Positions 1 through 12,411 of a stretch of 21,708 nucleotides of DNA are shown piece after piece. The notes below the pieces were generated by a model, which saw only the letters and a list, made by a program, of their open reading frames with translations, had not been told where the DNA came from and did no database searches. The DNA lies in the NCBI GenBank assembly GCA_024278215.1, contig JAJRTR010000053.1, positions 1 through 21,708 on the forward strand. The letters are read 5' to 3'. Position 1 is the stretch's first letter. The number at the start of each line of letters is the position of its first letter. The translations under genes and the position numbers were made by a program. The stretch comes from a bacterium. Its GTDB lineage: Bacteria > UBP15 > UBA6099 > JAJRTR01.

Positions 1-845
1 CCGACCTCATCGTTGTACCGTGTTCGCATAATCAGGATTTATTCAGCCGGTATGTGGCGGATATCCCGGTTGATGTTTGTCTTGAGGGAGTAGAGGTAGA
101 CAAATTCACTTGTTATGCTCGGCAGTTTCCGAAATTATACCGGTTTGTGTTTTACTGGTGTGGCGCGTCGAATCCTCGGAAAGGGTATCACTACACGATT
201 GCAGCATGGGCCGCGTTCAACAACACCCACCCGGATCTAGCAAGTAAAATCCTGCTGTACATGAAAACGACGCAGGTAAGTGATCAAGAACATATTATCG
301 GATACAAGGCAGGCAAGCCGATACGCGAACAGATGCCGCGAGAACGTGTGCTTCAATGCGGCAACGCGCGCATCGATACACGGAAAATCCCCTTCGAAGG
401 TCCTGGGGGACTTATAGAGCAATATCACAAGGCGCATTGTTTCTTGTTTCCGACTATGGGCGAGGGGTTCGGACTGACCTTGGCCGAGGCAATGGCGACC
501 GGTCTTCCTGTCATTTACACGCCCTGGTCTGGGCCGAACGATTTCTGCTCAAGAGCCGAGGGGTTTCCAATTAAATACAGCTTTACGAAAGTAAAGAGCA
601 GGCGCGTTATGAAAGACGGCGAATTCATAGAAGGGTTTGAAAGCTACGCCGCCGACCCGGACGTGAAATCAATCGTGCGCGAAATGTATCGCGTATATAC
701 CAATTACGAGGCCGCGCTTGCGCGCGGACGGCGAGCCGCAGAAAGAATCAGACGTGAGATTACGTGGGATATCAGCGCAAGCAATTTCGCCGAGATCGTG
801 AAAAAACGATATGCAGAAGCTCGCGGGAGGGTGCGTGTTGGATAA
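1..845 (+). CDS. Glycosyltransferase, GT4-like GT-B fold, 5' partial
   Basis: The reading frame is already open at base 3 and shows coding-like sequence (DLIVVPCSHNQDLFSRYV) before the first possible in-window start, so the true start is upstream of the window. The visible part covers the end of the N-terminal lobe and the C-terminal nucleotide-sugar-binding lobe. The hallmark is the EX7E motif in GEGFGLTLAEAMATGLPVI (about bases 459-515), typical of retaining GT4 enzymes that transfer a sugar from a nucleotide donor. It sits in line with virion structural genes and just before a sulfotransferase and a radical SAM enzyme. Decoration of a virion protein or host glycan is an inference. The acceptor and sugar cannot be told. 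Family call is firm, role is not. Confidence 0.88.
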   Translation, partial: DLIVVPCSHNQDLFSRYVADIPVDVCLEGVEVDKFTCYARQFPKLYRFVFYWCGASNPRKGYHYTIAAWAAFNNTHPDLASKILLYMKTTQVSDQEHIIGYKAGKPIREQMPRERVLQCGNARIDTRKIPFEGPGGLIEQYHKAHCFLFPTMGEGFGLTLAEAMATGLPVIYTPWSGPNDFCSRAEGFPIKYSFTKVKSRRVMKDGEFIEGFESYAADPDVKSIVREMYRVYTNYEAALARGRRAAERIRREITWDISASNFAEIVKKRYAEARGRVRVG

Positions 846-1500
846 CACCTCCCCAATATGGTTTTTGCATGTCATAAAAACCGGCGGGTCAACGATTTGC
901 GCGCATCTGTCGAGGCACATGCTTGGATATTATGACATCGATATCCCAGAGCTAAGCACAGGCGGGAAAGAAATTTTCCGCTCAGGGCATGCGCTCGTGT
1001 GGCGTCCGGACCGCCGGGTGATAACTATTGTCCGCGACCCGGCAGATTGGCTTGTCTCCGTGTACAATCACGACATGGCCAGGTCTGGGCAGCGTATCTC
1101 ATTCGCGACGTGGTATGACCGGTCGGCTCCGAACAGCGTCAATACGGTTGGGGGGCTGCGAGACCGCATGGTTAAGTGGGCGTCGTATATGTTTCGCCCT
1201 CCTGGGGGAGGGTTGCAGGGACTGATAGATATGTTATCGGAGTGCTGGCTCGTCGGGGTTACCGAGCGACTCAATGATGATCTGCCTGCTCTGTGCCGGT
1301 ATTTGAATGTCCCGACACGGTATCGGAACGAACGGGTAACCGGCGAATTCGACAGATTCGATGGCCGCGAAATCGAGCGGCGATATGAATTGACGGCCGA
1401 AATGAGAACCAAGATTTACAGGGAGAATGCAAGCGACATGGAATTTTATATGCACGCGCGCCGAGTCGCGAAACCGTGGGCTGAGGTTTTAGGGGGATAA
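838..1500 (+). CDS. P-loop sulfotransferase family protein
   Basis: A 220-residue protein with both PAPS-binding signatures of the sulfotransferase fold: the 5'-phosphosulfate loop HVIKTGGST at residues 11-19, and the 3'-phosphate motif RDPADWLVSVYNHD at residues 66-79, with R66 and S74 as the expected ligands. The expected reaction is transfer of a sulfo group from PAPS to a sugar hydroxyl or protein. I chose the TTG at 838 because GGGAGG at 825-830 sits 7 bases upstream. GTG 835 and ATG 811 are in-frame alternatives, and 811 has no ribosome binding site. The start overlaps the glycosyltransferase stop, implying coupled translation. A sulfotransferase next to a glycosyltransferase suggests sulfation of the added glycan, which is inference. 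Confidence 0.8.
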   Translation: MDNTSPIWFLHVIKTGGSTICAHLSRHMLGYYDIDIPELSTGGKEIFRSGHALVWRPDRRVITIVRDPADWLVSVYNHDMARSGQRISFATWYDRSAPNSVNTVGGLRDRMVKWASYMFRPPGGGLQGLIDMLSECWLVGVTERLNDDLPALCRYLNVPTRYRNERVTGEFDRFDGREIERRYELTAEMRTKIYRENASDMEFYMHARRVAKPWAEVLGG

Positions 1501-2316
1501 ATGGACGCGAAAATTAGTGTGACGACGAGATGCAACGCTCGCTGCAAGACATGTCCTGTGTGGACGCTCCAGGGCGACGACATGCCTGCTGGCGTGTTTA
1601 AGGAAATATATAAAAAGTTAATGACCGATCCGCGCATTGATAGAATCCTGCTCAACAATACAGGGGACATGTACGTACATCCCGATAGGGCTCGATTGTG
1701 GGAGATTATCGAGGCGACAATGTATAAGCCGGTGATCCTCACGACGAACGCGGCCGAGATGGATTATTGTCCTAAGGTGACGAAAATCATAATTTCGTTT
1801 AACGGCTATGACAAGGCGAGCTACGAATACACTACCGGGCTGCCTTTCGACGAGACAGTGGCGAATATCCGCAGCTTTTACGACGATCTGTCCGAATTGA
1901 ATGCTGAAATCCATACGCTCGCCTGGGGCGACATTTACGTTCCGAACATCGAAGAGCGCGTGCGTGATCTGTGGGGCGATTTCCCCGGGCGCGTTCGCGT
2001 GTCCTACAAGACTGACAATCAACAAGAGCATGACATCCCCGGGGCGCCGGTTCATCAGGCGGAAGCGCGAATACCATGTGATTATTTGGACAAGGTGAAT
2101 ATCTGGCCGGATGGATCAATAATACAATGTGCGCATGATTTCAGGGGCGAGGGAAGGTTCGGTAATATTTTGACAACAAGCGTTTTCGGGTCTATACTAC
2201 ACCCAGACAGGATGAAATTAAAGGCACAGCATGCGGTCGGGGCGTTCCCGGGATTGTGCGCGACGTGTAATTACAACACGCCTACTGACGGCAGGATTGT
2301 GTACGTGAGGGGCTGA
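1501..2316 (+). CDS. Radical SAM enzyme with SPASM-like C-terminus
   Basis: A 271-residue protein opening with the radical SAM cluster motif CX3CX2C (C11, C15, C18), followed by a TIM-barrel-like pattern with a GD-type region near residue 55 and strands ending in TTNA and ISFNGYD. The C-terminal part has C193, C210, C253 and C256 in a pattern (CX16C, then GN, then CxxC) resembling SPASM or twitch auxiliary-cluster domains. Such enzymes do peptide or sugar modification by radical chemistry. ATG 1501 directly follows the sulfotransferase stop with AGGGGG just upstream. It lies between two modification genes and head-tail genes, which is unusual for a siphovirus. The substrate is unknown; a virion protein or the glycan made by its neighbours is a guess. 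Confidence 0.85.
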   Translation: MDAKISVTTRCNARCKTCPVWTLQGDDMPAGVFKEIYKKLMTDPRIDRILLNNTGDMYVHPDRARLWEIIEATMYKPVILTTNAAEMDYCPKVTKIIISFNGYDKASYEYTTGLPFDETVANIRSFYDDLSELNAEIHTLAWGDIYVPNIEERVRDLWGDFPGRVRVSYKTDNQQEHDIPGAPVHQAEARIPCDYLDKVNIWPDGSIIQCAHDFRGEGRFGNILTTSVFGSILHPDRMKLKAQHAVGAFPGLCATCNYNTPTDGRIVYVRG

Positions 2317-2317
2317 C

Positions 2318-2917
2318 ATGGCACTCGACACGACGAACGCGCTCGATACGCTGGCGAATATCAAAACGCATTTGCGTATTACATCCGGGGACACGACGTA
2401 TGACACGCAGCTCGAAACGATGATCGACGGCCTGTCGATAGCGTTCAATCGATACACACGGCGTGACCTTCTTGCGAGAGACAGAACGGATTATTACGAC
2501 GGCGACGGATCGGGCATCCTGTACGTGCATCACTGGCCGATCAATTCCATAACATCATTGCATTATGATACCGACCGGGATTTCGATTCAGATACTCTCG
2601 TGGCGACAAGTGATTATTTCTACAACAAGGATGAAGGTGTTATCGAATTGGAATCCGGCGGGTTTCCTGATGCGAGGAAATGCATAAAACTAGTATCGAA
2701 TGCCGGCTTTACAAGCATCCCTGCCGATCTGCTCATGGCGTTCCGAGATCAAGTCAAAGCACATTGGCGTTGGTGGATGGATAACCTGGAGAAGATTAGG
2801 TCTGTGACGAAAGAATCCGTCAGTTATTCATTCGACAATTCGGTGTTTTTGCCGGTCGTGCAACGGGTATTGGATACATATCGGCGCAAGGGCTACACGG
2901 GGGGCATGACAACGTGA
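2318..2917 (+). CDS. Head-tail connector, gp6-like
   Basis: A 199-residue protein matching the gp6-like / QLRG-type head-tail adaptor pattern: an N-terminal helix pair around ANIKTHLRI and DTQLETMIDGLSIAFNRYTRRDLL, a beta region with WPINSITSLHYD, and a C-terminal helical part around LLMAFRDQVKAHWRWW. These proteins form the ring under the portal that links the capsid to the tail. The start follows the radical SAM stop by one base. Its position directly before an HK97 gp10-like gene fits the usual siphovirus order. Longer than the minimal HK97 gp6 (about 110 residues) but usual for this wider family. Confidence 0.85.
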   Translation: MALDTTNALDTLANIKTHLRITSGDTTYDTQLETMIDGLSIAFNRYTRRDLLARDRTDYYDGDGSGILYVHHWPINSITSLHYDTDRDFDSDTLVATSDYFYNKDEGVIELESGGFPDARKCIKLVSNAGFTSIPADLLMAFRDQVKAHWRWWMDNLEKIRSVTKESVSYSFDNSVFLPVVQRVLDTYRRKGYTGGMTT

Positions 2918-3327
2918 TGATGACCTGGCCGCAGTTTGAGAAGAAAATCGACCGGTGGGTTCGCGATTTCCCGGACGCCGTGGAAAATGCACTCGAAACG
3001 GGGGGTGAGATCATCCTCGGCGAAGCACAGCGAAAGCATTTGTCAGGACCGAAGATGCCGAAAGGCGTCGGCAACCCGATGCGGGGGACGTTGCAACCGC
3101 GAAGCGGTGATTTGAAAACGCGATTGAATAAGCGCGTCAGAGTATCACGGACCGATGTCTCGTTGCGCGTCGGGTCGAACATGGTTTATGCAGCGACGCA
3201 TGAATATGGGGACCCTCGCCGGGGCATCCCTGCGCGGCCGTTTTTGCGCTCGTCGCGTGACGCGCGTATTGACGATGTGAAAGCGATTATTCTTAAACGA
3301 ATCATGGCGGCATACGAGAGGGCATAA
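2914..3327 (+). CDS. HK97 gp10-like head-tail joining / tail completion protein
   Basis: A 137-residue protein with the characteristic C-terminal signature of this family: Y-x3-HEYG near residues 91-97, then IPARPFLRSS near 103-112. The middle has a basic stretch following SGDLKTRLNKRV. These proteins act at the head-tail junction during tail attachment. The GTG at 2914 overlaps the connector stop (GTGATG); ATG 2917 and 2920 are in-frame alternatives only one or two codons on. A G-rich stretch at 2899-2905 acts as the ribosome binding site. Confidence 0.85.
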   Translation: MMMTWPQFEKKIDRWVRDFPDAVENALETGGEIILGEAQRKHLSGPKMPKGVGNPMRGTLQPRSGDLKTRLNKRVRVSRTDVSLRVGSNMVYAATHEYGDPRRGIPARPFLRSSRDARIDDVKAIILKRIMAAYERA

Positions 3328-3776
3328 TGGCCGATTCGAAACAAAAAGATATTGTCGATGCGATAGTGTCCGCGATTGGGGGATTGTCTGCGGTGGCGAA
3401 GGCAACGCAGGATGAAGCGGCATGGGCCCAGGCGGGGCAGAATCTGGCGGACCTCCCGATTGTATTTGTCAACGCGCAGAAGCCTATCAATTCGCGAGCC
3501 TATTTCCCGCATGCGACCGCGAACGATATGGAGGGCGAGATGGAAATCGAAATCCATGGTCAGACGCTGTCGCAATACGGGAGCTCGAAACGTGCGGATG
3601 TCGATACTGTGCGACAAGCAATTGAGACAGGCCTCGACACCGATACGACATTGCAGGGACTTATACTTGATATTGTTTTGACATCGAGTATAATTGACAT
3701 AGGCTCTTCGGAGAACAGGGGATTTTTTCTCGATAAATACATACTGACGTATGAATATAATCATGCGTCGCCATAG
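3327..3776 (+). CDS. Probable tail terminator protein
   Basis: A 149-residue protein in the slot between the gp10-like gene and the major tail tube gene, where tail terminators (lambda gpU-like) lie. It looks like a mixed alpha/beta fold: an N-terminal helix, then LADLPIVFVNAQ, then EMEIEIHGQTL and a final YILTYEY strand, as in gpU-type proteins. Tail terminators cap the tube at its head-proximal end and fix its length. Its ATG overlaps the previous stop by one base. The call rests on position and fold-like pattern rather than a sharp motif. Confidence 0.65.
   Translation: MADSKQKDIVDAIVSAIGGLSAVAKATQDEAAWAQAGQNLADLPIVFVNAQKPINSRAYFPHATANDMEGEMEIEIHGQTLSQYGSSKRADVDTVRQAIETGLDTDTTLQGLILDIVLTSSIIDIGSSENRGFFLDKYILTYEYNHASP
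3667..3694 (+). promoter_or_regulatory. Candidate internal sigma70 promoter before the major tail gene
   Basis: TTGATA at 3667-3672 and a perfect TATAAT at 3689-3694 are separated by 16 bases. The expected start of transcription is near 3701, about 87 bases before the major tail protein gene. It lies inside the 3' end of the tail terminator gene, in a locally AT-rich patch. An extra promoter here would raise expression of the most abundant tail protein. It could be chance. Confidence 0.4.
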
Positions 3777-3787
3777 GAGGCACTAAA

Positions 3788-4183
3788 ATGCCGGCAACTG
3801 TAGGTAAAGACGGGGGGTTCTATCTCGGCACGTCGCTGTTGACGTTTATCGATTCATGGAGCATTCAGGGGACCATCGGGCATGAAGAGATAACCGGATT
3901 CGGCGATTCAAACGTCAAGCGCACTCCAACGCTGCGCGACTGGAGCGCATCGGCGTCTGGGACGCTCGACAGGTCCGATGCCAACCAGGCGGCGATGCTC
4001 GACCAATTCGAGGACGGGACTATTACGGCGACGAGCGTGCGCCTCTCGACAGAACGAGGGTCCGATTACTGGGAGGGCTCTGCTATCATCGAGTCGTTCA
4101 GCGTCGATGCAACAGTGCAGGGCAAAGTGTCGGTGAGTTTTTCCCTCGTCGCTGCCGATGCGCTGTCGTGGACTGAGGCATAA
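3788..4183 (+). CDS. Major tail tube protein
   Basis: A 131-residue beta-rich protein with the tail-tube pattern: LLTFIDSWSIQGTIGHEEITGFGD near the N-terminus (EIT-FG is common in tube proteins), DWSASASGTLDRSDANQAAMLDQF in the middle, and a C-terminal strand VSVSFSLVAADALSW. It polymerises as hexameric rings around the tape measure. It has the best ribosome binding site of the structural genes (AGGAGG at 3776-3781, 6 bases before the ATG) and, unlike its neighbours, does not overlap the upstream gene, both fitting high expression. A candidate promoter lies about 100 bases upstream. The order terminator, tube, G/GT chaperone supports the call. Confidence 0.85.
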   Translation: MPATVGKDGGFYLGTSLLTFIDSWSIQGTIGHEEITGFGDSNVKRTPTLRDWSASASGTLDRSDANQAAMLDQFEDGTITATSVRLSTERGSDYWEGSAIIESFSVDATVQGKVSVSFSLVAADALSWTEA

Positions 4184-4584: not shown

Positions 4585-4886
4585 ACCCGAAGACTAAACG
4601 ATGGATAGCGCGTGATTGGAGCGGGTTTGTTCCGACGCCGGACCAAGAAAACAAAGTATCGATTATTGGTCCTGACATTCCGGGGGTTGACGACGAGGAC
4701 CGACTTTTCAGGTGGGGCGACATCCCGCAGATACGGGAGAAAGGGCGGCGAGGGATGCAACTATACGATATGTGGAAGCGGTTCGGCCTCCCGTTCAGCG
4801 GAGGATGGGCAGATCAGCCGCAATATGTTATTGACCGCCTACACATAGTCGATACGATAGTGAGGGCGGCACATGCCAAGAGATAG
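4545..4886 (+). CDS. Tail assembly chaperone T extension, made by -1 frameshift
   Basis: This frame adds 113 residues to the G protein after the slip, giving a G-T fusion of about 233 residues. The frame contains a GTG at 4566 but no ribosome binding site upstream of it, so independent translation is unlikely. The extension is acidic and tryptophan-rich at first (WRDPKTKRWIARDW) and ends in a helix-like segment WADQPQYVIDRLHIVDTIVRAAHA, a pattern seen in small tail proteins at this locus. In lambda the T part recruits the tail tube protein to the tape-measure complex. It overlaps the tape measure start by 14 bases. Confidence 0.8.
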   Translation: MKRAALLVVDGWRDPKTKRWIARDWSGFVPTPDQENKVSIIGPDIPGVDDEDRLFRWGDIPQIREKGRRGMQLYDMWKRFGLPFSGGWADQPQYVIDRLHIVDTIVRAAHAKR

Positions 4887-6891
4887 AGTTGAAGTTGAAG
4901 TTCTCACGCACACGAACAAATCGAATGCATCCCTGAAAAAATATCTTGGCCTTGTAGCGGCGGCGACGGCGGCAGCCTACGGACTGAAAAAAATCGTTAT
5001 TGACAATGCGAAAGCGGGGCTCAAATACGCAGGCTCAATGGATGCGCTGTCTGCGTCATTCCGAGTATTGTTGCGCAGTGGTTCAGAAGCTGAAATGCTC
5101 ATGGAGAGTCTTCAACAGTTCGCGGCTACGACGCCGTTCCAGATGGAAAAACTAGCGCAGGCCACAAAGGTTCTCATTAATACCGGTACTGACGTGTCGC
5201 GGGTGACGGACGTACTGGAATCGTTGGGAAACGCGGCCATGGGCAATGCGGAGGTCATGGACCGGCTAGTCGATGCGTACTCAAAGCTGCAGACCAAAGG
5301 ACGCGCTTCGCTGGAAGAATTGAATCGTTTTCTCGAAGCCGGCGTGCCGATTTTAGACGAGTTACAAAAGTCCCTCGGCGTGACGAAGGATGAATTATTT
5401 GCAATGATCAGCGCCGGGAAGGTGCAATTCGCCGAAGTAAATAAAGCGCTTGAAAATCTCACCACCGGACAAGGCCGCTTGGCCGGACTCATTAAAGTTC
5501 AGTCGGAAACACTGCCTGGGCTGCTATCGACATTGCGAGATGTTGTGGATCAGATGCGCGGGGGATTCATGGAAGCGTTCCTTCCGGCGCTCAAGGCCGG
5601 GCTCCAAAAACTCATCGGCTGGCTGCAGAAAGCGGCAGAGAATATCAAATCGTGGGCTGAAACGAATCAGGCTACGATTTATGCGATATTTACCAAGTTG
5701 CCTGACATCGTTAAAGCAGTTATGGAGACGGTCGTTTCGATGATCAACACTGCCATGACCGGAACGACGATGGTGAATGTGATGAAAGTGTTCGGGCAAT
5801 ATATCGCCGACGCCATGCGCCTAGGCATTTCGACGCTGCCGTTTATGTTCAAGACAATTTTGTCTGTCGCCGAAGACGTCTGGCGTGCATTCGGCGACAA
5901 TGCTGGGAAATATATAATTAACGGCATAGTAAACGCTATTCTTACCGGCCCGCGATGGGCGACGAAGTTCGTTGGATGGTTGACGGGAAATGAGACCTTA
6001 GAAATAGGGCGAGTCGATTTCTTCGGCGTCGATACTATGCGGGACATGGAGGAGTTTAAGGGGCTTATTGCAAACACGTTCGAGGAAGCCGGCTTAACTG
6101 CGCGCCGTATGGTGGCGCAAAACATGACGAACTGGGCCGATTCGGTGAAAGAGATAGCCGGACTATTCGATGATGACCTGGCAGCCGGAGCCGAGAAAGT
6201 CAATGCGTTGATAGAAGACGGGAAGGCAGCATTCGAGGAATGGAAATCGTCGGCAGAGGATTTCGGCGTCGCTACTGTTGACGCCACTGCCGCAGGGGCC
6301 GAGGCGACAAAAGCTTTGATTATGAGTCAAGAGCGGTCGGTAGATTTGTGGCGCGAAATGATTGTGAAGAACGATGAATTAGAGCAATCATATTATGACT
6401 TGGCAGCCGCAGCGGCGCAGGCGCAACAAAAAGCATTTGAGGAAATGACATCCGATTTATTCGGATGGGCCGGCGATTATCTCGACGTGTTGCGTGAACT
6501 TGGCGTGGCTGAGGAAAAGCTGTTTCAGTATAAAAAAGCAATAGCTCTTGTCGAGGCGACAATCGGCATGTTGACGGCTATTGCTAAAGCGACGACTGTA
6601 TGGGAAAAAGTGGCAGCGCTGACGACAGGGCTGCTGGCAATAGCGAAAATTGGATATGAGCAACCGCCGCCGCCGCCGTCATTTGCGAGTGGCGGAATTG
6701 TAGCCGGCCCTATTACCGCGACGGTTGGTGATGCCGGCCCTATGCGGACGGGGGCGGAAGCGATTGTCCCGCTCGATAGATACGGCGACAGTCCGACTGT
6801 CGTTGTCCACGTCTACGGGACAGTAATCAGTGACGACCAATTACAGGGCGTGATAGTCGGCACCGTGCGGGAAATGCAGCGTGGCTATTAA
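4873..6891 (+). CDS. Tape measure protein
   Basis: A 672-residue protein with the conserved tape-measure N-terminal domain: a hydrophobic segment LGLVAAATAAAYGL near residue 26, then SFRVLLRSGSEAEMLMESLQQFAATTPFQ and ASLEELNRFLEAGVPILDELQKSLG, a standard signature. A long helical middle carries hydrophobic stretches around residues 270-360. A run of five prolines near residue 597 precedes the common C-terminal ending FASGGIVAGP...VGDAGP...EAIVPLDRYG. It sets tail length and is ejected ahead of DNA. By the usual 0.15 nm per residue, the tail would be about 100 nm, which is short for a siphovirus. It follows the G/GT pair with an overlap and overlaps the next gene by 11 bases. Confidence 0.95.
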   Translation: MPRDRVEVEVLTHTNKSNASLKKYLGLVAAATAAAYGLKKIVIDNAKAGLKYAGSMDALSASFRVLLRSGSEAEMLMESLQQFAATTPFQMEKLAQATKVLINTGTDVSRVTDVLESLGNAAMGNAEVMDRLVDAYSKLQTKGRASLEELNRFLEAGVPILDELQKSLGVTKDELFAMISAGKVQFAEVNKALENLTTGQGRLAGLIKVQSETLPGLLSTLRDVVDQMRGGFMEAFLPALKAGLQKLIGWLQKAAENIKSWAETNQATIYAIFTKLPDIVKAVMETVVSMINTAMTGTTMVNVMKVFGQYIADAMRLGISTLPFMFKTILSVAEDVWRAFGDNAGKYIINGIVNAILTGPRWATKFVGWLTGNETLEIGRVDFFGVDTMRDMEEFKGLIANTFEEAGLTARRMVAQNMTNWADSVKEIAGLFDDDLAAGAEKVNALIEDGKAAFEEWKSSAEDFGVATVDATAAGAEATKALIMSQERSVDLWREMIVKNDELEQSYYDLAAAAAQAQQKAFEEMTSDLFGWAGDYLDVLRELGVAEEKLFQYKKAIALVEATIGMLTAIAKATTVWEKVAALTTGLLAIAKIGYEQPPPPPSFASGGIVAGPITATVGDAGPMRTGAEAIVPLDRYGDSPTVVVHVYGTVISDDQLQGVIVGTVREMQRGY

Positions 6892-9800
6892 ATCGATCCT
6901 GTCAGATCATCAATCGAATCTCATGACCGGCGCCGGGGGAGATCGCGACGAGCGATTGTACCTCGGGCTGCGTGGAGTGAAATACCCCGACATTGCGAGA
7001 GACACGCGGACATATATCGACCGTGGCGACTGCGAATCTACCACTGCTCCGGCGTTGCGTGGGGAAACAGCGGTTACAACGTCGAATCTTACATTCGCAC
7101 GGTCCGACGATTGGAATCATAGAGGCGCGTACTCGTACAAACTGATCAAGGCGGTCGCAGCGGGGACCGAAGCCTACGTCGCGCTGCAGGATGGAGTGGG
7201 CACCGCCGACATGCACGGGTTTATCGCCGGCGAGACGGTGGAGATGATTGCGTGGCTCAAGTTGCCGTCGTCCGGAGGCCCGCTATCGAGCGAGGTTACG
7301 TTGCGCGTGCAGGAATACTATTCAGGCGCGTGGAACGCGACGACGCTGGACACAGGGAGCGTCGATGCCGGGAACATCGAAAAACTCTCCGGTCGGATCG
7401 CACTCAACGCATCCACGGCTGCAGTGCGATTTGAAATCGTACTCGCCTCTGCTGCGGCAGATACTGAGTACGTCTACGTAGACGATATCGAGATTTATCG
7501 ATATGCCACGTTCACTTTGGCGCGCGAGGACAATTTGGTTGACCGGGGGAATTGTGAGTCGACGACGGCTCCGGCGTTCCGTGGAGAAACATCAGCGGTA
7601 TCAACCAATGCATCGGGCGCGCGCACGGCTGAGGTTGCGCGCAGCGGGAACTATGCATGGCGGGTTACTAAGACGTCGGCTGCCGGCGCCGGTTGGGCTA
7701 GCTGGTATTTTCAGGATTCAGCATCTAATACAGACATGCATGGATTTTCAGCCGGTGAGACATTAGAGGTATCTGCATTTGCAAAGCTGACGTCCGGATC
7801 AAGTCCTGATCCGGGAGAAGTGCGGATGCTATTTGAAAATTACAGATTATCTACAAGCTCTTGGGTTGTGATCGGGGCATCAGCCTACATGTCGGTAAGC
7901 GACGCGTTCGAAAAATTGACACTTACTCCGACAATATCAGATGATGCCCGCGGTATCAGATTGCGAGTACAAATTAATACAAATGCAGGCTTAAACGAAT
8001 ATGTAGATATTGATGACATCCGCGTTACCCGCCACAGCGTCCCCGGCACCCACTATCTCAGCGGCAGCTATACCGAGCACCTGGTCGAGATGCCGGATAA
8101 GTTCACGCTGCAGATTAAGTTCAAGCCGAATTTCGCGTATGATATTGCAACCTCGCAATATATTTGCGGATGGAGAATAGATAGTGCGCATAATCTTGTA
8201 TTATATTATGAGGCTTCAGGCGATAAATTCCAAATTCAATGGATAGACGGTGGATCTGCAAAGTATTTGTTTTCCGCTCAATATGATGATGGCACTACAT
8301 ACCGGAATATCAATCAATGGATTACATTAACATTTGCATTTGATCCGGCATCCGGGCAAACAGGTTCCGCATTATGGCTTAACAAAACACAAGACGATGC
8401 GGATTTCGGCGCAGCCCCAGATAGTAAATCAACATCATTCCAGACGATGCGAATGCGTGAATATAACGGAGTACAAGGCGATATTAATATCGCCTTCATC
8501 CGCCTTTTCCGCAACTACGTGGCCACCGACGCCGATGTTCAGAACGATTTCAAGGACGTCAAGGCCGAGGAGATTTACTGGAGTTTCGACGGACATGCGA
8601 CCGGGCGAACACGGGTCAATGTATCGAGATTCTACGCTCGGCGGATGAAACTCACACGCTCGGTTAAAACCGGCACATCAGGCGCCTACGGAGCGAATCG
8701 ATTTCAATGTGCACTCAAAAATCTGAATGGCGAATTCTCCGACGATCAATATGGGACGTATGATCCTACGACCGACAGTTTTAACGGTGACTCCGACCAG
8801 GCGTATTTGCGCGATAGATTCGAGGTCGAGCTTGAATCGTGGTACTCAGGAGATTTCGATTCGGTGTTCCGCGGCCGTGCAGTAGGTGGGTTGCAACGCA
8901 ATAGCGCGAGAAAGAATGTATCGTGGGTATCGCTGGTTGCGGAAGATCGGTCGGCCGATCTGGCGTCGGCAATCATCACATCCGGGCATGTATTCGAGGA
9001 TTGCAAGCTCGCCGACACCGTGGAGGCTAATTCTCTGTTCCACAGAATTGCACGCCTGGGGCGGCCGACCGTCAAACAATATCTGGCGAATAATTCGTTC
9101 GAGGACGCGACGATTACCGATGCCTGGGTGGCGAGCGGGGGAACATGGACGCGCGAAGCGAACCCTTTATTCGGTACATATTGCGGCCGGCTAGTGCCTG
9201 GGGCCTCGGCGCAGAGCGTGTATCAGGAGATAACGTTTTCCGGCTCTGAAAAGCTGTCCGTTAACCAGGAATTCACGTTTTACGTCTGGCTCTATTCCTC
9301 TGCGGCTGCATCGGGCGCGAACAATTATATCCGGATTGATGAGCGCGATAGTGGAGGATCAAACGATACGACAGATACGTCTATGGCATTGACCGGCGGC
9401 GAGGGGTGGGTGCTCCATCAGGTGACGCACACGATTACGGATGCTGATTCAGACAGATTGCGAATCATCATCGCTGCAGATGCCGGAGACACGATTGATA
9501 TAGACGGGGCCATGTTCGTTGTCGGCGACCGTAAAAATAATGTGTTCCGCGAATCATCGTTGGTATTGACTGATGCCGTGTCGAGCGGGTCGGTGAGTGC
9601 CGATTATCGCGACGAGGTGCAATGGGACGAGTTCGGGTTCGACGCGGCGACGATTGACTATGTGCATCCGTGGCGGCGCGTGGATCAAGGCACGACCGTA
9701 TGGGACCATCTCAAATCCCTGTTCGATGCGGCCATAGTGGATTACGGCGGATTCGACGAGTCTGGGACGCTATTATATCACGGGTATTTAGAGTCCGGAC

Positions 9801-12019
9801 GGTCTGAGCTTATTACGATGCACAAATTCACTGCGTCAGGCTCCGGATATATCCGCAATAGTATCCAGATCGGCATTATAGGAATCGCGGCGAATCGGAT
9901 CATCGGTCACGGAGTTAAAATCGTCAAACACGGCCGGATCGTCTACAAAGCGGCCGGCAATCAGACAATGGTCGTCGCCTCGCGGATTCTGTGGCAGGCA
10001 TCGGCGACCGACCTGTTCGAAGAATCGCTCGAAGGGCTGATTCTCAATGTGACGATTCCTGACGGCGGTTATTTCCCCGACCAGGAGGAGTTCGCCACGT
10101 TCTGGGCGCGCCTCGGGGATGTAGAGGATAAACAGGACCTGTTCAAGCGCCTGTGGGATAGGAGGTATGAGTTTTTTGGCGAGGAACGAGTATTCTTGAC
10201 GCAACCTGTGAACCGGAAATCGATAACAGGATTGCAATCGACCGTAGGATATTTCGGGTCGGTCGGATTGGGCGGGCAGTGGGCGTTGACCGGAGTTTGG
10301 TCGCCGAACGGACCGCTGCTGAAATTGGTCGGCGGTGAACGGCTCATCGGTGTGACCGACGCCGATCTGCTGCACAAGTTGACCGACACGTCGGGGGACG
10401 GCAATTCGGCTCTCACCGAACAAACGATCGGTAATATGGTCGGCGGGCTCGATGTATTGAGCCGTCCCGATCAAGCGCGCATCTTGTTGTATAACGGGAC
10501 CGGAGCGAGTAAAACCATCATCGACGTGGGAATCGTCGGGCGCCCTGTTACGCTGTACGGTGATGATAGCGGATATGTTAATGACCACTATCGGCTCGAC
10601 GAGGATATCGCGCGCAACGGTGAGAAGCCGCTTGAGTTCGGCAATATCGATATCCTCGGCGACGTCAGGGAGGCGAACGACACGAGCAACCCCATACATG
10701 TGGATCGCATATGTGAGTATTGGGCGAAGTTCTGTTTCACGAAAAAGCATTCATATTCATTCGCACAACACGGATCGCGCTTCTGGGTATGCCCAGGGCA
10801 GTGGGCCACGATAGAGGTCGGCTCGTCCGGCGAGGCGGAATACCTCAACAGCAAAGCCTCAATCGCAAGTATTACTATTGATCGCGGTCCCGACGGCATC
10901 GGGAATACGTCTATCGCCGCGGTGGAGGTGCAAGAAGGATTCAAGAGTACGACGACGCGGGATCTGGCGGCATTTCTGGCCTCGGGGATCAAGCCGCGAA
11001 CGCGGCGGACCTCCGTTACCGTCGTGGGCCGATATCATATCGGCGACGCTGATTTCAGGTGTTCAGGGTCTGACGACCAGACAACAATCAATGCGGCGAT
11101 TGATTTCATGTCCGGCGCGTATGGTGGCGGGGAAGTCATCCTCACAGGATATTTTTATCTTTCCGGCGCGATAAAACCGAAAAGCAATATCACATTGCGC
11201 GGCGGAAGCGCAGGGGCTGTCATAGAAAAGAATTGTGATGATTATGCAATATCTGTAAATCAAACACCAGGATCGGAATATTCGAACGTTAGCATCAGGG
11301 ATATGAAAATAACGCGCAATGCAGGAGATACGAACGCAGGGAAGCATCTGCTATATTTCATGTATTGCGATTTATTGTCAATCAGCAACGTCTCGATCTA
11401 TGACTCGTATGCGTATGCATTATACATTTCTTATTGCGATGATGCAACAGTAAATAATGTGTTTGTCCAGGAATGGAATGGAGATAGAGCAGTACAGTTC
11501 GAGCGTTTAACCAGGTTCGTCGTTCGCGATTTGACAGTTGATGGAAACGGCTGTAGCTCGCAATCTGGAGTTGTTTTTGCAGTCGTTACAGATGCAGCGA
11601 TAATCGCAGATTCAATTGAAGTGAGGAACTTTGTTAGTTCAGGAAGCACCACCTATGGGTTCTACACGAATGCAGATAAGATGTCTCTATCAAATATAAT
11701 AGTGCATGATCTAACCAAGTCAACCGATGGATCGATCATTCATGGCATCGCTTTGGATGCTGACGATATAAAGGGCTCTAATCTCACAGTTTCAAATGTA
11801 GATAATACGTATGCCGCTTCCGCCGTTCGAGGCTTGTACGTGCGCGGTGCCGATGTGGTGCTAAGCTCCATTTTCGTATCAGGATGCAGCGGGACGGGTA
11901 TATACATAGATGCCACGTCGTCGAAAACACAGATCGCAGGGGGGAGAACTACCAATAACGGAGTTAATTATAATGACGTTAGTGGATCGGCAAATACGGC
12001 GGCCTTCGATACGACATGA
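6881..12019 (+). CDS. Giant modular tail-tip protein: hub, sugar-binding and beta-helix tailspike domains
   Basis: A 1712-residue protein starting at GTG 6881. Modules as read by eye: two tandem homologous jelly-roll-like domains resembling CBM4/9 (about residues 47-210 and 221-385); a LamG / concanavalin-like domain (about 388-555); a tail-hub-like part (about 560-730); a third CBM-like domain beginning NNSFEDA (about 735-885); a second hub-like part (about 885-1370); and a pectate-lyase-type right-handed beta-helix (about 1378-1712) starting with the tailspike motif GSDDQTTINAAIDFMSG and GGGEVILTGYFYLSG. It probably forms the tail tip, binds the receptor polysaccharide and may depolymerise it. 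Usually these jobs are split over several genes. AT-rich patches near 7720-7990, 8160-8490 and 11220-11780 suggest module exchange. Confidence 0.85.
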   Translation: MAIKSILSDHQSNLMTGAGGDRDERLYLGLRGVKYPDIARDTRTYIDRGDCESTTAPALRGETAVTTSNLTFARSDDWNHRGAYSYKLIKAVAAGTEAYVALQDGVGTADMHGFIAGETVEMIAWLKLPSSGGPLSSEVTLRVQEYYSGAWNATTLDTGSVDAGNIEKLSGRIALNASTAAVRFEIVLASAAADTEYVYVDDIEIYRYATFTLAREDNLVDRGNCESTTAPAFRGETSAVSTNASGARTAEVARSGNYAWRVTKTSAAGAGWASWYFQDSASNTDMHGFSAGETLEVSAFAKLTSGSSPDPGEVRMLFENYRLSTSSWVVIGASAYMSVSDAFEKLTLTPTISDDARGIRLRVQINTNAGLNEYVDIDDIRVTRHSVPGTHYLSGSYTEHLVEMPDKFTLQIKFKPNFAYDIATSQYICGWRIDSAHNLVLYYEASGDKFQIQWIDGGSAKYLFSAQYDDGTTYRNINQWITLTFAFDPASGQTGSALWLNKTQDDADFGAAPDSKSTSFQTMRMREYNGVQGDINIAFIRLFRNYVATDADVQNDFKDVKAEEIYWSFDGHATGRTRVNVSRFYARRMKLTRSVKTGTSGAYGANRFQCALKNLNGEFSDDQYGTYDPTTDSFNGDSDQAYLRDRFEVELESWYSGDFDSVFRGRAVGGLQRNSARKNVSWVSLVAEDRSADLASAIITSGHVFEDCKLADTVEANSLFHRIARLGRPTVKQYLANNSFEDATITDAWVASGGTWTREANPLFGTYCGRLVPGASAQSVYQEITFSGSEKLSVNQEFTFYVWLYSSAAASGANNYIRIDERDSGGSNDTTDTSMALTGGEGWVLHQVTHTITDADSDRLRIIIAADAGDTIDIDGAMFVVGDRKNNVFRESSLVLTDAVSSGSVSADYRDEVQWDEFGFDAATIDYVHPWRRVDQGTTVWDHLKSLFDAAIVDYGGFDESGTLLYHGYLESGRSELITMHKFTASGSGYIRNSIQIGIIGIAANRIIGHGVKIVKHGRIVYKAAGNQTMVVASRILWQASATDLFEESLEGLILNVTIPDGGYFPDQEEFATFWARLGDVEDKQDLFKRLWDRRYEFFGEERVFLTQPVNRKSITGLQSTVGYFGSVGLGGQWALTGVWSPNGPLLKLVGGERLIGVTDADLLHKLTDTSGDGNSALTEQTIGNMVGGLDVLSRPDQARILLYNGTGASKTIIDVGIVGRPVTLYGDDSGYVNDHYRLDEDIARNGEKPLEFGNIDILGDVREANDTSNPIHVDRICEYWAKFCFTKKHSYSFAQHGSRFWVCPGQWATIEVGSSGEAEYLNSKASIASITIDRGPDGIGNTSIAAVEVQEGFKSTTTRDLAAFLASGIKPRTRRTSVTVVGRYHIGDADFRCSGSDDQTTINAAIDFMSGAYGGGEVILTGYFYLSGAIKPKSNITLRGGSAGAVIEKNCDDYAISVNQTPGSEYSNVSIRDMKITRNAGDTNAGKHLLYFMYCDLLSISNVSIYDSYAYALYISYCDDATVNNVFVQEWNGDRAVQFERLTRFVVRDLTVDGNGCSSQSGVVFAVVTDAAIIADSIEVRNFVSSGSTTYGFYTNADKMSLSNIIVHDLTKSTDGSIIHGIALDADDIKGSNLTVSNVDNTYAASAVRGLYVRGADVVLSSIFVSGCSGTGIYIDATSSKTQIAGGRTTNNGVNYNDVSGSANTAAFDTT
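7019..8032 (+). repeat. Tandem duplication of a CBM-like domain in the tail-tip gene
   Basis: Two domain copies start about 522 bases apart, at residues 47 and 221. Both open with DRG-D/N-CESTTAPA-x-RGET and later carry T/N-TDMHGF-x-AGET and a closing E-YV-x-x-DDI motif. At the DNA level the openings (about 7019-7070 and 7541-7593) are still clearly similar, but later parts have drifted, and the second copy is more AT-rich. This points to an old internal duplication followed by divergence or replacement. Confidence 0.75.
8142..8161. repeat. Inverted repeat at left edge of AT-rich LamG segment
   Basis: ATATTGC (8142-8148) and GCAATAT (8155-8161) form a perfect 7-bp inverted repeat with a 6-base loop. 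It lies where the sequence turns from GC-rich to markedly AT-rich inside the LamG-like module. Confidence 0.55.
8475..8496. repeat. Perfect 22-bp palindrome at right edge of AT-rich LamG segment
   Basis: Bases 8475-8496 read AAGGCGATATT followed by its exact reverse complement, with no spacer. The palindrome falls exactly where the AT-rich part of the LamG-like module ends and GC-rich coding resumes. Confidence 0.8.
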
Positions 12020-12411
12020 CGCGGAAATTTTTAGTTACTGCCTTGTTCGCCATGATGTGGACGATTACATCCTGCGTTTTTGTCGACGAACAGCTTCTTA
12101 TCGCGATTGAGGAGGCTCGGTGGGTGTATTTGAATATCATGCAGGTTCCGTCATATGAAATAATCAAGCATCCGATTGAGACGATGGAGGACGGAGAAGG
12201 TGATTGTGCCGACATGTCCGCTTTGCTGATTGTTCGTATGCGGCGCCGGGGAGTTTTTGCCGGCCAGCTCGTTGCATATGACGTAGGTGCGGACGTTGCC
12301 CATATGGTAGTCGAGATATTCGGGGTGACTATCGACCCGACGAACAAGGATATCGTTGTGACGATTGATGGGACCGAGATCGGGCGCTATTTATGGATAT
12401 CATGGCTGTAG
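12016..12411 (+). CDS. Predicted lipoprotein with transglutaminase-like fold
   Basis: A 131-residue protein. Residues 1-20 look like a lipoprotein signal peptide: basic start, hydrophobic core LVTALFAMMW, and lipobox ITSC with lipidated Cys20. The rest resembles a compact transglutaminase-like (papain-fold) domain: GDCADMSALLIVRMRRRG supplies the nucleophile Cys64, AHMVVEIFG supplies His96, and VTIDPTN supplies Asp107, all in the expected order and spacing. The start overlaps the tail-tip stop (ATGA). Similar folds are found in cysteine proteases and amide-forming enzymes. A membrane-anchored role during infection or exclusion of other phages is only a guess. Confidence 0.7.
   Translation: MTRKFLVTALFAMMWTITSCVFVDEQLLIAIEEARWVYLNIMQVPSYEIIKHPIETMEDGEGDCADMSALLIVRMRRRGVFAGQLVAYDVGADVAHMVVEIFGVTIDPTNKDIVVTIDGTEIGRYLWISWL

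Follow-up and report, generated by a model that had tools for sequence, protein, structure and literature searches.

Three adjacent phage genes, which encode a GT4 glycosyltransferase (GT), a sulfotransferase (ST) and a radical SAM (rSAM) enzyme, probably form a modular, late-expressed cassette that puts a tailored glycan on the phage's own particle. The genes occupy positions 1-2316 of the + strand in the window, i.e., the whole analysed stretch of DNA, which is the entire contig C23 (21,708 bp) from a draft genome of 4.55 Mb; the phage is either the organism's own or was binned with the genome. The proposal is based on gene order, co-inheritance, purifying selection on the GT and rSAM, intact motifs, folds, and allele swaps between relatives. 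The first-pass annotation had described three coupled enzyme genes upstream of head-tail genes on the same strand; this arrangement was confirmed with two corrections, namely, that the GT gene is cut at its 5' end and that the ST probably starts at position 838.

The GT gene (3..845) is truncated by the contig start, and its missing 5' part is located on contig C29 (L003) of the same assembly, with the gene start at L003 position 11663 or just inside. The first 315 bases of the window overlap the extreme end of C29 (313/315 identical, two mismatches), where the gene order is terminase, portal, protease, capsid, a zinc-ribbon ORF and the start of the GT. Judged from this overlap, the cassette follows the major capsid gene and precedes the connector gene, and the join is supported because relatives show the identical gene order. 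No overlaps extending the phage beyond the ends of C23 or C29 were found. The ST reading frame is open from position 811; the start at TTG 838 (838..1500) is favoured by relatives and by the preceding GGGAGGG, and gives an overlap of 8 nt with the GT (35 nt if counted from 811). The rSAM gene (1501..2316) follows with a gap of 0 nt, and 1 nt separates it from the gene of the gp6-like head-tail connector (2318..2917; PF05135 8e-5, phrog_442 6e-19), the conserved 3' neighbour of the cassette. On the same strand, these genes are followed by those for a neck/tail completion protein similar to HK97 gp10 (2914..3327; phrog_5 8e-12), a probable tail terminator (3327..3776; phrog_4204 0.008 plus position), the tail tube protein (3788..4183; PF06199 1e-6, phrog_1407 8e-13) and the tape measure protein (4873..6891; PF20155 1e-26); then come a 1712-aa tail protein and lysis and recombination/replication genes. 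Gene calls were six-frame ORFs combined with home-made profiles, and many of the viral contigs used for comparison are fragmentary.

Several other features of these contigs should be recorded. The C29 portal (L003 7372-9393) and capsid (10107-11446) genes contain one in-frame TGA each, and at both mismatches of the C29/C23 overlap, C23 reads G where C29 reads T; the alternative explanations are a sequencing error, damage and a decaying prophage. The small zinc-ribbon protein between capsid and GT (L003 11500-11661) is also found in L017 (6784-6981), L020 (9202-9372) and L021 (9369-9515). C29 encodes C5-cytosine and D12 adenine DNA methyltransferases and a Mom-family protein (PF25680 1e-44) in L003 959-2440 and 5168-5800, so that, from these genes, the phage may modify its own DNA as well. 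Between them (L003 2642-4178) are three FGE-sulfatase C-terminal units in tandem, spaced by 156 nt, and then a separate FGE-sulfatase domain and one further unit of this kind; these repeats resemble variable-repeat proteins, and their surroundings contained neither a recognised reverse transcriptase nor a template. A diversity-generating retroelement on C29 was considered and rejected: the only reverse transcriptase of the genome is on another contig, with no template match there. In the window, the large tail protein gene contains a perfect 22-bp palindrome (8475-8496), and positions 12016-12411 encode a small secreted-looking protein with the motif GDCADMSALL, transglutaminase/cysteine-protease-like by eye and with no Pfam match; a relative of this protein (L055 1064-1513) lies inside a glycan cassette between GT and sulfotransferase.

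The assignment of the GT is straightforward. The window protein scores above the Pfam cut-offs for PF13692 (43.4 bits, cut-off 27; 5e-11) and PF00534 (42.5 bits, cut-off 26.4; 6.5e-11), and matches phrog_2170 (2e-21). The donor motif EX7E (GEGFGLTLAEAM) and GASNPRKG are intact in the window copy and kept in relatives, and residues E240/E248 and R145/K146 (L020 numbering) are invariant across 16 sequences, including that of the window. The GT4 family is at most about 27% identical to GTs in phage records. The closest solved relative is B736L of chlorella virus NY2A (3OY2), a viral retaining GT-B enzyme that binds GDP-mannose and has a proposed role in capsid glycan synthesis (PMC4691112); it differs in that it comes from a eukaryotic virus, is only remotely homologous to the window GT, and has no linked rSAM in the present comparison.

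For the ST, single-sequence Pfam scores fall just below the gathering cut-offs (PF00685, 21.2 versus 22, 2e-4; PF03567, 19.9 versus 22), and the protein is at best a divergent member of the Pfam sulfotransferases. The profile comparison with an alignment of its relatives identified heparan sulfate 6-O-sulfotransferase (E 9e-8). The 5'-phosphosulfate loop KTGGST and the 3'-phosphate motif VRDPADWLVS are present and conserved among relatives; R66, D67, P68 and S74 of RDPxxW..S are invariant in nine sequences, and the loop lysine is replaced in one relative (RTGSST in L092). The AF2 model (pLDDT 90) has a predicted fold that is closest to HS2ST (Z 14.8) and HS6ST (Z 12.3), with the next entry at 9.5. 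Taken together, the window ST is supported as a predicted carbohydrate-type, PAPS-dependent sulfotransferase. It shares fold and PAPS-binding motifs with heparan sulfate 2-O- and 6-O-sulfotransferases, whereas it is a 220-aa bacteriophage protein that is 21-23% identical to them in structural alignment.

The rSAM required a similar combination of approaches, as the window sequence by itself scores 18.4 against a gathering score of 29.5 for PF04055 (0.0026), i.e., below the cut-off, though fold and motifs agree with this family. The radical motif CX3CX2C (C11, C15, C18) and four C-terminal cysteines (C193, C210, C253, C256) are invariant in 17 sequences, and the latter constitute, at the motif level, a predicted auxiliary cluster of the BtrN-like Twitch type; in BtrN, the auxiliary cluster is fully ligated by four cysteines (PMC6231123). 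The alignment of relatives gave BtrN as the best sequence match (E 4e-7), mainly over the C-terminal cluster region. The AF2 model (pLDDT 81.6) has a SPASM/Twitch fold (Z 16-19); SuiB (18.6), anSME (17.9) and BtrN (17.7) score so closely that sugar- and peptide-acting Twitch/SPASM enzymes are not separated. BtrN, a Twitch rSAM dehydrogenase of butirosin biosynthesis (4M7T), resembles the cassette enzyme in size, CX3CX2C, four-Cys auxiliary cluster motif and fold, whereas the sequence similarity is remote. It should be noted that sequence similarity in the rSAM family is a poor predictor of function, according to a warning in the literature (PMC6231123). The closest cellular relatives are often located among genes for DegT aminotransferases, epimerases, WbqC, nucleotidyltransferases, GTs and flippases, i.e., in sugar/surface-polysaccharide clusters.

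Using the window's own rSAM, ST and connector as queries, we obtained almost no matches in viral contigs, and alignments of relatives were required to detect homologues. Likewise, tblastn searches of 50,697 phage records gave no match for the window rSAM or that of L021 (the latter even at E 0.1), nor for the window ST at E 0.01. A search of genome contigs yielded one remote match (L052, Levybacteria, 29%), and the 386 genomes searched contained only cellular rSAM relatives, apart from the window itself. The first phage relative (L017) was found via the ST; its head genes are 35-44% identical to those of the window phage, and its capsid and zinc-ribbon genes are followed by genes for a sulfotransferase, a GT and a GDP-mannose 4,6-dehydratase. 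When the capsid pair served as query, L020-L023 were identified, all of which have a GT and an rSAM between capsid and connector. Five rSAMs, used as queries, detected close relatives (36-61%) in 18 viral contigs, including near-duplicates (L030/L031, L037/L038) and some contigs already known from the capsid scan; in 17 of the 18, the same GT is located no more than 1.15 kb from the rSAM, at the boundary of capsid/connector or of the tail tube, and the remaining contig starts 485 bp upstream of the rSAM. The first-pass annotation had suggested looking for the same gene order next to head-tail genes elsewhere, and this order does recur: GT-ST-rSAM-connector is common to the window, L029, L037, L116 and L085, with one extra ORF in L055. 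The refuting condition named there, a gene order unique to this contig, therefore did not hold. Because the arrangement is conserved in about 16 other contigs, a chance origin is ruled out.

The GT scan extended this picture to 65 non-redundant loci, 60 of which have head, neck or tail genes at a distance of 4 kb or less. An rSAM, whatever its type, is present in 31 of the 65 loci and beside 25 of the 32 closest GTs, fractions that are biased upward since the GT queries came largely from rSAM-bearing contigs (the 17/18 figure is free of this bias); a sulfotransferase is present in 10 loci. The cassette occupies one of two places, capsid/connector or tail terminator/tail tube (L039, L042, L044), with the order rSAM-ST-GT ahead of the tail tube in L044, and the gene junctions mostly overlap or abut. 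Other cassette contents include methyltransferases, epimerases, GDP-mannose dehydratase, other GTs, a second sulfotransferase-like family that was called by eye and has no Pfam match, and three further kinds of rSAM, one with a B12-binding domain. The B12-binding rSAM occurs together with a second small rSAM within capsid-adjacent GT cassettes of L097, L109, L110 and L114. Another subfamily, rSAM type 2, is found near the same slot in L024, L065-L068, L075, L094, L098 and L113; its profile matches are to PqqE/MoaA/anSME and, weakly, to prokaryotic viperins (pVip E 1e-10, L068). A defence role of type 2 is disfavoured by its fixed place beside GT and capsid genes, and PADLOC gives nothing for the GT, the ST and rSAM type 1. 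A remote rSAM (22% identity) is also located two to three genes past a distantly related capsid gene in L047-L049 (near 7989-8783; 5107-5901 in L049), which suggests that the rSAM-capsid association is wider than the analysed set.

Comparisons of close relatives revealed exchange within the cassette. In DNA, L073 and L075 are 82% identical as far as the GT end, and the identity resumes close to the connector start; between these points, L073 has an rSAM of type 1 and L075 one of type 2. Similarly, L084 and L116 are 83-86% identical on either side of the junction of GT and rSAM, and an exact insertion at this point in L116 contains the sulfotransferase. Because of these two swaps, we conclude that different rSAMs are exchanged in their slot and that the sulfotransferase can be present or absent, whereas the GT is constant; the conserved core is GT plus rSAM, with the sulfotransferase as an add-on. 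The first-pass idea that the set could build a sulfated or radically altered glycan is partly supported, namely in its sugar-directed part, by the sulfotransferase fold and the sugar-biosynthesis neighbours of the closest cellular rSAMs. Protein distances of GT and rSAM are correlated (rho 0.72), the highest value among the gene pairs of six genes tested; P values were obtained by a Mantel-like permutation shuffle, with the shared phage phylogeny uncorrected. The dN/dS values were 0.05-0.11 for GT, 0.04-0.17 for rSAM, 0.03-0.13 for capsid and 0.09-0.15 for connector, with synonymous sites saturated in some pairs. GT and rSAM are under strong, capsid-like purifying selection.

We favour the virion-glycan reading because the three enzymes point to carbohydrate, all of them are in the virion operon, and the site alternates between the genes for two virion proteins that rank among the most abundant. 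The following steps are proposed: (i) with a nucleotide sugar as donor (our guess is a GDP-sugar), the GT4 would attach a sugar to a cytoplasmically made virion protein, which, from the position of the cassette, is most likely the major capsid protein, or the tail tube protein where the cassette sits there; (ii) the Twitch rSAM would then alter the sugar, most likely by a BtrN-like oxidation at a carbon, or by epimerisation or deoxygenation, although it may instead prepare the nucleotide sugar or the acceptor; (iii) the sulfotransferase, where present, would transfer sulfate from PAPS onto a sugar hydroxyl. With the rSAM and sulfotransferase slots swapped between close relatives, the surface chemistry would vary while the GT stays, and the presumed benefit would be an altered virion surface.

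Phage GTs often modify host surface polysaccharide, and the enzymes might act in this way during infection or lysogeny, resulting in superinfection exclusion or seroconversion. The location of cellular rSAM relatives in surface-polysaccharide clusters is consistent with such a role, and a reading of this kind is also found in PMC7029224. We consider it unlikely, as the cassette is embedded in the virion operon with overlapping or abutting frames and lies beside capsid or tail genes in nearly all loci of the GT scan, no flippase, polymerase or membrane anchor gene was seen beside it among the ORFs inspected, and late expression would allow little time for a surface change. Slightly less probable still is that the rSAM acts on a protein residue, as in RiPP maturation (epimerisation, a cross-link or an oxidised side chain), and the GT glycosylates that residue. 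The top structural scores do include the peptide-modifying SuiB, anSME, SkfB and ChlB, and the closest NCBIfam model, TIGR04317 (6e-10, partial match), is a protein maturase. Conversely, the N-terminal RiPP recognition element is absent, only 10 residues preceding the radical motif, which begins at residue 11; instead of the seven-Cys SPASM motif with its two auxiliary clusters (definition in PMC6231123), the rSAM has four conserved C-terminal cysteines, i.e., a single auxiliary cluster motif; and both the sugar-pathway neighbours of cellular relatives and the recurrent carbohydrate-type sulfotransferase partner point away from a protein substrate.

Glycosylation of phage DNA by the GT, in the T-even style, is very improbable. 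GT-B enzymes include DNA glucosyltransferases, HHpred also links B736L with T4 alpha-GT (PMC6024577), and C29 has the Mom and two methyltransferase genes as other DNA modification functions. However, no base hydroxymethylase was found among the scanned ORFs of the window and C29, and the GT is located in the virion operon. We also know of no role on DNA for a heparan-sulfate-like sulfotransferase. Finally, the variable content of the cassette could be taken as a sign of metabolic cargo or decaying hitchhikers with no virion role, a reading that is largely refuted, and hardly credible, in view of the strong purifying selection on GT and rSAM, the conserved catalytic motifs, the conserved position and the co-inheritance.

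Capsid glycosylation by phage enzymes is known, whereas the proposed tailoring by an rSAM and a sulfotransferase, in a fixed swappable slot, is new. PMC11256854, citing Freeman et al. 2023, describes capsid glycans in mycobacteriophages Che8 and Rita; these resemble our proposal in having phage-encoded GTs and a glycan attached covalently to the major capsid protein. In the related mycobacteriophage Maravista, GT genes are near the 3' end of the genome, whereas the GT4 described here has a fixed place next to the capsid gene and is accompanied by the rSAM and the sulfotransferase. In Arthrobacter phage KellEzio, gp28 belongs to the same broad GT family and is likewise encoded in the virion operon, following the tail terminator; it differs in being a single annotated GT, with no rSAM or sulfotransferase annotated beside it. 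In the library searched, no paper on rSAM with virion glycosylation describes this arrangement; two surveys count rSAMs and GTs as auxiliary genes of phages, with no such arrangement in the parts consulted.

More tentatively, with slightly less than even confidence, we suggest that these loci represent an undescribed, widespread phage system, in which at least four kinds of rSAM have been recruited to a constant position next to the capsid or tail-tube gene, providing exchangeable, radical-tailored and sometimes sulfated virion glycans, i.e., a chemical serotype system. Phage virion glycosylation is a young topic with few examples, and here many uncultured phages are seen to carry, at one or two sites of the genome, a recurrent, selected, modular glycan cassette, in which radical SAM chemistry and sulfation would be interchangeable steps. 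The swap pairs (rSAM type 1 or 2; sulfotransferase present or absent) make predictions that are open to mass spectrometry. If the proposal is true, new Twitch rSAM enzymes would be available with a genetically defined sugar context, and phage particles would bear sugar chemistries beyond simple hexoses, which could shape recognition, stability and adsorption.
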